Assembly (NCBI RefSeq): GCF_013623775.1
Contig: NZ_JABFAM010000005.1
Span: forward strand, 124,001-188,000
Origin: Rufibacter sp. XAAS-G3-1
Lineage (GTDB): Bacteria; Bacteroidota; Bacteroidia; Cytophagales; Hymenobacteraceae
Length of the DNA stretch: 64,000 nucleotides
Direction of reading: 5' to 3'
Positions 3,884-51,054 of this stretch are shown one piece after another; position 1 is the first letter of the stretch, and every line of letters starts with the position of its first letter. A program made the translations under genes and the position numbers. The notes beneath the pieces were generated by a model that saw only the letters and a program-made list of their open reading frames with translations, ran no database searches and had not been told where the DNA came from.

Positions 3884-3919
3884 GTTTAGCGGCTGTTTTC
3901 AGAAAAACAGCCGCTAAAC
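3884..3919. repeat. palindrome family A, intact copy
   Basis: The arms GTTTAGCGGCTGTTTT and AAAACAGCCGCTAAAC are perfect over 16 bp with a 4-nt loop. The GCGG in the left arm is matched by CCGC in the right, a paired change from the usual GGGG/CCCC. Confidence 0.85.
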
Positions 3920-7777: not shown

Positions 7778-7838
7778 AATCCTTTCGGTTTAGGGGCTGT
7801 TTTTGGTAAAACAGCCCCTAAACCGAAAGGATTTTTTT
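7778..7838 (+). terminator. family A palindrome acting as a strong terminator of purM
   Basis: Perfect 26-bp arms (7778-7803 and 7808-7833) enclose a 4-nt loop. The inner part is the family A core GGGGCTGTTTT/AAAACAGCCCC; the outer AATCCTTTCGG is private to this copy. A run of T follows, so this copy has the full form of an intrinsic terminator. Confidence 0.85.
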
Positions 7839-8597: not shown

Positions 8598-8660
8598 ACG
8601 CTGGTTAGAAGCACAAGACGTTATTCCCAGAAATCGGGCTCCTTTCCAGAAATAGCCCCT

Positions 8661-8702
8661 AAACAGAGCGGCTCCGTTTAGAAAAACGGAGCCGCTCTGT
8701 TT
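8661..8702. repeat. family A-related hairpin with variant arms
   Basis: The arms AAACAGAGCGGCTCCGTTT and AAACGGAGCCGCTCTGTTT are perfect over 19 bp. A half copy of the usual family A arm (TAGCCCCTAAACAG) precedes and overlaps the left arm, so this looks like a rearranged copy. Confidence 0.65.
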
Positions 8703-8760
8703 AAAGCATGTTCAAGGCTTCATGAAGCATAAAGCTTGGCAAGTAGAAATCTTGTGTTAA

Positions 8761-15122: not shown

Positions 15123-15280
15123 CACTCCTGCTGGTGGTTCCCGGCGAGTCCGGAGACTCGCTTCAACCCTAGTCACGGGACTGGAGTCTCGCGCCAGTTA
15201 TTTCCATACCTGTGAGGTCTTTAAGACCTCACAGGTATTTGCGGTTTGGGTTCTTTTTATGAAAAACAGGCCCAAAACGC
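15123..15280. repeat. composite three-hairpin repeat B, copy 1
   Basis: Three modules in order: an inverted block starting CTGCTGGTGGTTCCCGGCG and ending GTCTCGCGCCAGTT; a perfect hairpin ACCTGTGAGGTCT/AGACCTCACAGGT (15208-15236); and a family A palindrome (15241-15280, ending CAGGCCCAAAACGC). The same three modules occur at 56941-57099 and, reversed, at 35357-35520. No gene is supported in 14758-15925. Confidence 0.8.
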
Positions 15281-26103: not shown

Positions 26104-26173
26104 TGGAGCTGAGGTAGTCTGTTTAAGGGCTACTTTCTTAAAAGTAGCCCTTAAACAGACTACCTCAGCTCCA
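26104..26173. repeat. palindrome family A with 33-bp arms overlapping a gene's end
   Basis: Perfect 33-bp arms (26104-26136 and 26141-26173) enclose a 4-nt loop. The inner part is AAGGGCTACTTT/AAAGTAGCCCTT. The right arm runs 14 bp into the last codons and stop of the HlyD-family gene, so the left arm is an inverted copy of that coding end. Confidence 0.9.
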
Positions 26174-44382: not shown

Positions 44383-44455
44383 GTCGTGGAGTATTGGTTT
44401 GGCTTTCTTATTTATTCAGTACGCGGGCAAAATTAGTTTGACTTACTTTTCTGTT

Positions 44456-44542
44456 GTCATCCTGGAAGGATCTTGGTCGCGAACGGCAATAGCGTTCCAT
44501 CAAAGCTATTCTAGTTCGCCCACAAGATCCTTCCAGGATGAC
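44456..44542. repeat. 87-bp hairpin repeat F, copy 2
   Basis: Ends GTCATCCTGGAAGGATCTTG and CAAGATCCTTCCAGGATGAC are a perfect 20-bp inverted repeat. Same length as the copy at 3705-3791 and alignable to it in reverse. The 25-bp string just upstream (44429-44453, AAATTAGTTTGACTTACTTT within it) recurs at about 57779-57803. Confidence 0.85.
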
Positions 44543-44695
44543 AAATAGTATAAAGTAATCCTGTCTCAGTACTTAGAAATATATAGTTGTTAGAAAGTTG
44601 AGTTATTACTTACTCAAATACTGGATGTTTGACACTATGCATATTGATAATGACATATGTGTTTGCATTAGTACTATCAAAGATGGTATTGACCG

Positions 44696-44767
44696 AAAGG
44701 AAACTAAAATTCATCTTAGTTTCCTTTCAGTGCCGAAAGGAAACTAAGATGAATTTTAGTTTCCTTT
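44696..44767. promoter_or_regulatory. nested perfect palindrome upstream of fic (candidate operator)
   Basis: Perfect 33-bp arms (44696-44728 and 44735-44767) are separated by 6 bp. Each arm is itself an inverted repeat of AAAGGAAACTAA and TTAGTTTCCTTT around 8 bp. So four copies of the GGAAACTAA half-site lie within 72 bp, ending 26 bp before the Fic ATG. The position suits autoregulation by the Fic protein's C-terminal winged helix. Confidence 0.75.
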
Positions 44768-44793
44768 GTGCGTAAGTGTAACTAGCCGAATTT

Positions 44794-45939
44794 ATGATAG
44801 AATTAGAAAGATATAAGTCAGGCCGTTTTGAGAAAGGTGTTGGAGGGTATAAGTACTTTATGCCCACTCTTATAAATGAGCAGTGGACTTGGAGTAGTCC
44901 TGAAGTTAACGCGTTATTAGAAAAGGCTGCTGTAAAGTTAGGGGAGCTGAACTCATTTGCCCGCATGGTACCAAACATTGGGTTATTCATTCATCTCCAT
45001 GTTACTAAAGAAGCAGTAGTGTCAAGTAGGATTGAAGGAACTCAAACAAATATGGGAGAGGCACTTTTACCAGAAGAAGACATTTCTCCTGAGCGGAGAG
45101 ACGACTGGAGAGAGGTGAACAATTATGTCAAAGCTATGAACATAGCTATAGATGAATTAGAAAGGCTTCCAATATCTTCTCGCCTTTTAAGGCAAACGCA
45201 TGGCATCTTATTGAATAGCGTGAGAGGGGAGCATAAGCAACCCGGTGAATTTAGAACTAGCCAGAACTGGATTGGTGGGAGTAGCCCTTCTGACGCGGTT
45301 TTTGTGCCACCCCATTTTGAATACATTGGTCAGCTAATGAGTGATTTGGAGAATTTTCTCCACAACACAGATATTGCAGTTCCTGCCTTAGTCAGAATTG
45401 CTATTGCGCATTACCAATTTGAGACAATCCATCCGTTTCTAGATGGAAATGGGCGAATAGGGAGGCTACTGATAACTCTCTACTTGGTGAGTGAGCAAAT
45501 CTTAAGCAAGCCTTTGTTATACCTTTCTAGCTACTTTGAAGAAAATAGAAGCTTGTATTATGATAACCTAACTTTTGTAAGAACTAAAAATGACATGACT
45601 CAATGGCTTAAATATTTCTTGGTAGGCATTGAGCAGACAGCTACAAAAGCAGTAAGCACCCTTCAGCAGGTACTAGAGCTAAAAGACAAGTTAGAGCAAC
45701 AAATCACAGCTGATTTCGGGCGTAAATCAGGATCTGCACTGGTGGTGCTTCAGCATCTATTTCATAATCCTGTTCTCCATGTAAGTGATATTGTTGAGGC
45801 ATGCCAGTTAGGTAAAAAAGCCGCAAACTCTGTAGTAGCTGACTTTGAAAGGATTGGGGTGCTTAGGGAAATGACGGGGCAAAGCAGAAATCGCGTTTTT
45901 GTTTTTGATCAATATTTAGATTTATTCTCTACAAGATAG
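44794..45939 (+). CDS. Fic family protein (AMPylator) with inhibitory helix and C-terminal winged helix
   Basis: In this 381-aa protein the N-terminal inhibitory motif is SSRIEG (Ser 77, Glu 81, Gly 82), of the class II form that blocks ATP binding until relieved. The Fic motif HPFLDGNGRIGR begins at catalytic His 213. The end (about 310-375, VLQHLFHNPVLHVSDIVEACQLGKKAANSVVADFERIGVLREMTGQ) reads as a winged helix-turn-helix. Fic enzymes transfer AMP to Tyr, Thr or Ser of target proteins. The gene is clearly more AT-rich than its neighbours, suggesting transfer. No separate antitoxin gene is seen. A large palindrome lies just upstream. Confidence 0.94.
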   Translation: MIELERYKSGRFEKGVGGYKYFMPTLINEQWTWSSPEVNALLEKAAVKLGELNSFARMVPNIGLFIHLHVTKEAVVSSRIEGTQTNMGEALLPEEDISPERRDDWREVNNYVKAMNIAIDELERLPISSRLLRQTHGILLNSVRGEHKQPGEFRTSQNWIGGSSPSDAVFVPPHFEYIGQLMSDLENFLHNTDIAVPALVRIAIAHYQFETIHPFLDGNGRIGRLLITLYLVSEQILSKPLLYLSSYFEENRSLYYDNLTFVRTKNDMTQWLKYFLVGIEQTATKAVSTLQQVLELKDKLEQQITADFGRKSGSALVVLQHLFHNPVLHVSDIVEACQLGKKAANSVVADFERIGVLREMTGQSRNRVFVFDQYLDLFSTR

Positions 45940-45940
45940 G

Positions 45941-45976
45941 TTTATCCCTGTTTTTCAGAAAGCAGGGGTAAAACAG
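45941..45976. repeat. family A-like palindrome after fic
   Basis: TTTATCCCTGTTTTTCAGAA and AGCAGGGGTAAA; the core is CCCTG rather than GGGCTG, one bp after the Fic stop. Confidence 0.55.
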
Positions 45977-45983
45977 GAGTGCA

Positions 45984-46022
45984 GAAAAAAAGCCCGTTGC
46001 TCTGGAAAGAACAACGGGCTTT
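45984..46022 (-). terminator. terminator of tRNA-Pro
   Basis: AAAGCCCGTTG/CAACGGGCTTT is a perfect 11-bp stem; a T run follows on the minus strand. It may also end fic on the plus strand (tail CTGCTTTT). Confidence 0.85.
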
Positions 46023-46032
46023 CTGCTTTTCG

Positions 46033-46106
46033 TCGGAATGGCAGGATTTGAACCTGCGACCTCCAGCACCCCATGCTGGCGCGATACCAGGCTACGCTAC
46101 ATCCCG
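46033..46106 (-). tRNA. tRNA-Pro (TGG)
   Basis: A 74-nt minus-strand gene. Acceptor stem CGGGATG/CATTCCG, D arm TAGCGTAGCCTGGTATCGC, anticodon loop around CATGGGGTG with anticodon TGG, T arm CAGGTTCAAATCCTG. CCA is not encoded. The Pro-type CGGG 5' end and anticodon agree. Confidence 0.94.
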
Positions 46107-49463: not shown

Positions 49464-49583
49464 GGCTCAAAAGACCTCGTAGTGTCAGAAGGTTCTGCGA
49501 GCGTCTATGCCAATAGCCTTTCCGTTACGCCAATCATCAATACCCGTTTTGAGGCTGTTTTTTACAAAACAGCCTCAAAACGG
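49464..49583. repeat. D block of mosaic repeat plus perfect family A palindrome
   Basis: GACCTCGTAGTGTCAGAAGG and CTGCGAGCGTCTATGCC match the block at the end of repeat C near 55.06 kb. Then comes family A, CCGTTTTGAGGCTGTTTT/AAAACAGCCTCAAAACGG (49544-49583), nearly perfect. No gene is supported in 49275-49749. Confidence 0.75.
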
Positions 49584-50922: not shown

Positions 50923-50964
50923 TCCCGGCGGGTTTTCGTTCGTAAGAGTAGAATGGGCATTCAA

Positions 50965-51012
50965 CGCTGCGTTTTGGGCCTGTTTTCATGAAAACAGGCC
51001 CAAAACGCAGCG
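50965..51012. repeat. palindrome family A, perfect 48-bp copy
   Basis: The sequence is its own reverse complement over 48 bp with no spacer: CGCTGCGTTTTGGGCCTG, TTTTCA at the centre, then the mirror. It separates nusB from the ytxH-like gene in a run of genes on the same strand. Confidence 0.9.
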
Positions 51013-51054
51013 TAGGCCCACAGATAAGAACCTATTAAACACTACCTATACACT

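Follow-up and report, generated by a model that had tools for sequence, protein, structure and literature searches.

The stretch of the Rufibacter sp. XAAS-G3-1 genome analyzed here (the window; 64,000 nucleotides, contig NZ_JABFAM010000005.1, positions 124,001 to 188,000) carries a 72-bp nested palindrome directly upstream of a fic gene. Comparison of this locus with its relatives indicates that the palindrome probably serves as the operator by which a SoFic-like class II Fic protein controls its own gene. The special feature here is the array of half-sites within the palindrome, rather than the perfection of the palindrome itself.

The palindrome is made of two 33-nt arms (44696-44728 and 44735-44767) that are 100% complementary and enclose a 6-nt loop. 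Four copies of the 12-bp half-site AAAGGAAACTAA alternate between the strands at a pitch of exactly 20 bp, with 8-bp gaps, and 26 nt (44768-44793) separate the array from the start codon of fic (Table 1). The letters confirm this arrangement, which had been described in an earlier sequence-only reading. The array outscores 200 of 200 shuffles. The exact 12-mer occurs four times in the 5.3-Mb genome, always within the array, and its reversed control seven times. A whole-genome scan found no second occurrence of the paired half-site pattern, and copies of the 12-mer with one mismatch (29 + 36) are no commoner than those of the reversed control (41 + 44). There is thus no sign of a wider regulon in the organism's own genome, and that candidate was rejected.

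The Fic protein has both motifs of a class II enzyme: the N-terminal inhibitory motif (S/T)xxxE(G/N), as worded in the available part of PMC9755527, at S77-G82, and the catalytic motif HxFx(D/E)GNGRxxR at H213-R224. Residues S77, E81, G82, H213, D217, N219, G220, and R224 are invariant among 127 aligned Fic proteins. The AlphaFold2 model (mean predicted local distance difference test score, pLDDT, 91.1) places helix 341-353 in the recognition position of a C-terminal winged helix. A self-inhibited Fic protein with a C-terminal winged helix had been proposed from the letters. The closest solved structures are those of SoFic (PDB: 3eqx, 3zcn), with E = 6e-39 by sequence and 5e-19 by fold. The PADLOC SoFic model matches residues 18-379 with 395.9 bits (E = 4.9e-119) in a library without a cut-off. 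Against the NCBIfam SoFic equivalog NF046030 the protein scores 174.6 bits, far below the cut-off of 550, and we therefore call it SoFic-like.

Table 1. Coordinates of the fic gene, its operator array, and parts of the encoded protein in the window
Feature	Position	Strand	Basis or remark
Operator array, here perfected into a 72-bp palindrome	44696..44767	.	four alternating-strand half-sites, 20-bp pitch
Half-site 1, AAAGGAAACTAA	44696..44707	+	exact match
Half-site 2	44716..44727	-	exact match
Half-site 3	44736..44747	+	exact match
Half-site 4, last before the fic ATG (26 nt)	44756..44767	-	exact match
Intact fic gene, 381 aa, SoFic-like	44794..45939	+	Fic_N and Fic domains, C-terminal winged helix
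SSRIEG codons, residues 77-82, class II N-terminal inhibitory motif (S/T)xxxE(G/N)	45022..45039	+	sequence
HPFLDGNGRIGR codons, residues 213-224, Fic catalytic motif	45430..45465	+	sequence
Winged-helix domain, residues 309-371	45718..45906	+	AlphaFold2 model, SoFic fold
Predicted recognition helix, residues 341-353, with Lys341 co-varying with half-site ACTA	45814..45852	+	model and co-variation

The array recurs before related fic genes. Loci were sampled from genome contigs (80), viral contigs (24), and genome searches (the others), and a locus passed if at most 2 of 200 shuffles reached its array score. Locus L067 was too short and was left out of scoring, a Sinorhizobium plasmid stretch (L147) was not used in the analysis, and duplicates were dropped from the later motif and chaining sets. 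The array precedes fic in 97 of the 139 scored loci, in records from several phyla, a few rows being near-identical copies. By identity of the Fic protein, the pass rate is 48/51 at ≥60%, 17/22 at 55-60%, 28/46 at 50-55%, 2/6 at 45-50%, and 2/14 at <45%. The misses at ≥60% identity are L013, L036, which has a run of N inside the array, and L099, where the query matched only partly. Further loci were found later with two Lys341 proteins (L064, L058) as queries, and L200, L205, and L234 were removed as duplicates. The array is present in 42 of these 57 loci, including 8 of 14 below 45% identity. The search for half-sites before orthologous fic genes that the sequence-only reading had called for thus found them in both sets. 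The array is the conserved part of the palindrome described there; the perfect 33-bp arms are not a conserved feature.

The spacing of the array is conserved, and the half-site sequence varies much. In a motif-free scan, the score is highest at a pitch of 20 bp (0.638 versus 0.513 in shuffled and 0.505 in downstream sequence), pitches of 17 and 23 bp reach 0.59-0.60, and direct repeats at 20 bp also exceed shuffles (0.574 versus 0.465). The distance between neighbouring half-sites is exactly 20 bp for 119 of 146 convergent pairs and for 90 of 116 divergent ones. Among the 92 chained loci, 46 have four sites, 26 three, 11 five, three six, two seven, one two, and three a single site. The commonest half-site, and the family consensus, is AAAGTAAAATAA; ACTTGAGATAA, CTGCGAATATAA, CTCCATTATAA, and others also occur. 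Array scores of ≥0.80 occur in 75 of the 137 stretches upstream of fic, in 9 of the 137 downstream of it, and in none of 140 coding stretches. As judged by eye, five or more of these nine downstream stretches (L018, L038, L064, L078, L136) share their half-site with the array upstream of the same gene, so that some downstream arrays, lying just after fic, appear to be real second arrays.

Several loci have other layouts. In L079, L086, L098, and L137, an array lies downstream of fic, with no significant one upstream. In L128 and L139, an array-like triple lies far ahead of fic (~640 bp upstream), and the interval contains an open reading frame (ORF). L150 has TTTTC(C)TATACAC(A/G)TC as a threefold direct repeat before a SoFic-like gene. 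A Fic protein above the SoFic cut-off is encoded by 10 of the 274 genomes of the class around genome G542. In nine of these true SoFic loci (L163 was excluded for want of a usable start), exact TGTCGA cores alternate between strands, with 9 pairs at a distance of 21 bp and 10 pairs at 19 bp, and same-strand cores are 40 bp apart (7 pairs); other pairs, at 30, 49, and 51 bp, are off by about one helical turn. This spacing table is descriptive and covers few loci. The true SoFic arrays share the 40-bp period and have another half-site.

The half-site bases follow a residue in the predicted recognition helix of the Fic protein. The half-site contains ACTA in 12 of 12 loci whose Fic protein has lysine at residue 341, versus 4 of 80 loci without it. 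Two of these four exceptions, L029 and L121, hold ACTA in another register. With a looser array threshold the counts are 15/16 (the exception is L114) and 4/88. Since the orientation of the half-site motif is uncertain in several divergent loci, this test was run free of orientation. A tree-aware test on a tree of residues 1-300 favors the dependent model (likelihood ratio, LR, 37.8, p = 1e-7), and none of 3000 simulated traits is as strong. The pair ranks first among 21,428 combinations of residue and 4-mer (phi 0.88, the next 0.70), having been spotted by eye before the count and the all-pairs scan. Among loci fetched after the rule had been written down, Lys341 goes with ACTA in 4 of 4, versus 1 of 38 others. 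The combined counts are 16/16 and 5/117, with a tree-aware LR of 57; L244, which lacks residue 341, was counted with the others in the later loci and left out of the combined test. Because the half-site follows the Fic protein's own predicted recognition helix, it is very probably the Fic protein itself that binds the array.

We propose that each Fic subunit would use its C-terminal winged helix to read one 12-bp half-site, and that the two subunits of one dimer would occupy neighbouring opposite-strand half-sites 20 bp apart. Further dimers could join on the same 20-bp grid, which would account for arrays of three to seven sites. The filled array, beside or over the fic promoter, would occlude the promoter and shut fic transcription, and such repression would keep a potentially toxic adenosine monophosphate (AMP)-transferase scarce. 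Autoregulation by cooperative binding had also been the preferred account in the sequence-only reading. The arrays before fic genes and the co-variation at residue 341 argue for autoregulation, and we infer from the same comparison that the dimers may bind cooperatively.

Several observations weigh against this operator model. The array falls short of the threshold in 42 of the 139 loci, mostly those below 55% identity, and extending the search 2.6 kb farther upstream rarely rescues it. The shuffle test also lets through 20 of 137 stretches downstream of fic and 6 of 140 within coding sequence. The promoter box TANNTTTG, seen 30 times against 12.6 in shuffled sequence in loci with at least three sites, has no match upstream of the window's own fic. 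Only five supported independent pairs underlie the link between Lys341 and ACTA, too few for a sign test; on average 4.4 of them go in the same direction and none in the opposite one. Whole-domain co-variation is weak: the partial r is 0.24 in the winged helix, 0.16 in the catalytic part, and just as high as in the winged helix for residues 41-80 (0.25-0.28). This domain-distance measure is confounded and lacks specificity for the winged helix. Lys341 is also outside the top 25 of the distance-based column scan. Two further rules did not hold: one pairing Tyr341 with TAAAATA is not upheld by the tree, and one pairing Asn342 with GAGATA was rejected as confined to a single clade.

The array could in addition restrain the enzyme itself, with DNA in the role of an antitoxin. 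The locus would then be a one-gene toxin-antitoxin system whose own operator is the antitoxin, a possibility that we consider unlikely. Dimers of Fic aligned along the 20-bp grid would be held inactive or deAMPylating. Phage infection might strip or dilute the array through degradation, replication, or competing DNA-binding proteins, and thereby both release active Fic and boost its synthesis. The idea draws on the extensible arrays, the sites after fic in some loci, the link in EcSofic between the C-terminal domain and toxicity, and the coupling in CbFic2 of Coxiella burnetii of DNA binding to dimerisation and deAMPylation. CbFic2, also a class II Fic protein with a winged helix at its C terminus, binds DNA, and DNA drives the enzyme toward a deAMPylating dimer, according to the available part of PMC10628234. 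There, binding was studied on random DNA and no operator is known; CbFic2 bears on this additional role only.

Perfect symmetry could itself be selected, for instance if a cruciform or single-strand hairpin were recognised at least in the window's own family. We label this family f1 and take it to be Hymenobacteraceae. Fully complementary outer spacers occur in 5 of 51 four-site stretches (47 loci). These five (L005, L006, L007, L009, and L011) are all of the f1 four-site stretches, and their spacers differ. Elsewhere, spacer complementarity is 0.88 in L039 and at most 0.62 in all others; the mismatched-locus control stands at 0.19%. Furthermore, between the window and its nearest relative, G063, the four differences in the arms are all compensated in pairs, as two double compensated changes. 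The f1 loci L008 and L010, however, have arrays without perfect symmetry, as does L024, a metagenome-assembled genome labelled Hymenobacter. Perfect hairpins (arms ≥16 nt, loop ≤8 nt) are also common in f1 DNA generally, with 16 in 200 kb (ten f1 regions) versus 3 in 180 kb (nine regions of other families), as raw counts over 19 regions of 20 kb. The 80 genome-contig loci hold eight in 503 kb. Such stems can be both created and repaired by template switching, according to the available part of PMC8794818. Selection on symmetry therefore seems unlikely to us.

With perfect arms confined to a lineage whose sampled DNA is rich in hairpins, the outer symmetry looks like a habit of that lineage. 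The perfect 33-bp arms, and with them the mirror-symmetric spacers, most likely arose by template-switch correction of a near-palindrome. This symmetry looks secondary and not required for function. Long perfect hairpins are not in themselves rare in this DNA: the window holds eight of that size, one other of which has 33-nt arms (26104-26173). All eight lie outside ORFs of ≥100 aa, save for a 14-nt overlap of 26104-26173 with one ORF end. The seven hairpins besides the palindrome have arms of 16-33 nt and lie at 26104-26173, 7778-7833, 50964-51013, 8660-8703, 49544-49583, 15206-15238, and 3884-3919.

The alternative offered by the sequence-only reading was an RNA hairpin in the fic leader, acting like a terminator or in translational control. 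The RNA strand folds at -52 kcal/mol (z = -11.8), with none of 200 shuffles as stable, as expected of any such palindrome, and the paired changes between the window and G063 would also suit a stem. Selected pairing would make convergent neighbours more alike than same-strand copies. Half-site identity is, however, equal for convergent neighbours, which can pair (0.846, n = 146), and for same-strand ones, which cannot (0.864, n = 173), and the hairpin is thus disfavored. Outside f1, none of the 46 four-site stretches has fully complementary spacers, and 39 of the 92 chained arrays have three, five, or seven sites. The half-site bases track the recognition helix of Fic, and between 44350 and 46300 only the tRNA reaches the Rfam gathering score. 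We consider an RNA element very unlikely.

A host regulator other than Fic could bind the array and would account for an operator upstream of fic equally well. Against this, the array goes with fic across records from several phyla, the sites in the window's own genome are found only before fic, and the co-variation is with Fic's own residue 341, which leaves such a regulator highly doubtful. It is extremely improbable that the palindrome is the end of a mobile element, or a repeat of the repetitive extragenic palindromic (REP) or miniature inverted-repeat transposable element type that came to lie before fic by chance: the gene is an insert of lower GC content (41% versus 52% for the window) with a REP-like inverted repeat nearby, but the single copy of the palindrome in the genome, and an array whose position and pitch before fic are conserved while its half-site changes, largely refute this.

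In toxin-antitoxin autoregulation, the gene is preceded by repeated inverted sites on which a DNA-binding domain linked to the toxin acts. Unlike in such operators, one protein here would be toxin, inhibitor, and repressor, and no separate antitoxin gene is seen at the locus. The 92 nt between the end of fic (45939) and a tRNA-Pro gene are fewer than a 47-codon AS1-like gene needs, which sets the locus apart from the Sofic-AS1 pair.

The precedent for an autorepressing Fic protein is CccR of Yersinia pseudotuberculosis. In the available part of its account (PMC9755527), CccR is a class II Fic protein with a C-terminal helix-turn-helix (HTH) and a demonstrated autorepressor for which the dimer is needed. 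Like the window's Fic protein, it combines an N-terminal inhibitory motif with a C-terminal DNA-binding domain (winged helix or HTH), and it binds inverted repeats before its own gene. Its operator differs in having two 10-bp sites, AGATAATCAT-N26-ATGATAATCT, 36 bp apart from centre to centre, whereas the window has four at a 20-bp pitch. CccR is also an effector of the type VI secretion system and forms a back-to-back dimer, unlike the window's Fic protein. That part of the account contains no comparison of multiple sites or of helix and operator. In the open-licence PMC literature, which leaves most subscription papers outside, we found no report of an alternating array before fic or of a residue-base link.

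SoFic and EcSofic are closest to the window's Fic protein by sequence and fold. EcSofic is an anti-phage Fic protein that dimerises via an N-terminal helix and whose C-terminal domain affects toxicity, and how Sofic is kept quiet is described as unsolved (PMC12249575); the part of that source available to us makes no mention of DNA binding by EcSofic. DNA binding by SoFic had not been demonstrated according to the available part of PMC10628234. The conserved array and the residue-base link make both the restraint of Sofic and DNA binding by SoFic directly testable. Operators could furthermore be predicted from sequence for many Fic proteins that are so far uncharacterised, and the array and the link suggest how a self-contained AMP-transferase may move between phyla with its own control. 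The comparison also tells a functional half-site array apart from a mutationally perfected palindrome, two things that are alike in raw sequence.

The fic gene is an insert in the interval 44383-46031, between a DUF2490 gene upstream and the tRNA-Pro gene at 46032-46106. The DUF2490 gene is present in 14 of 16 genomes of the genus. It is followed by fic in two of the 14 (the window and G063) and, within the stretch available, by tRNA-Pro without fic in 11; L186 differs. A close fic gene is found in 7 of 150 genomes of the window's own family. The fic DNA of the window and G063 is 87% identical (68% at third codon positions), and no alignment is obtained for the 298 nt that precede the array, yet all 48 half-site bases are identical, which speaks for the operator model. 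The REP-like inverted repeat lies at 44454-44544, between the DUF2490 gene and the operator, and has 43-nt arms that are 84% complementary (TGTCATCCTGGAAGGATCTTG).
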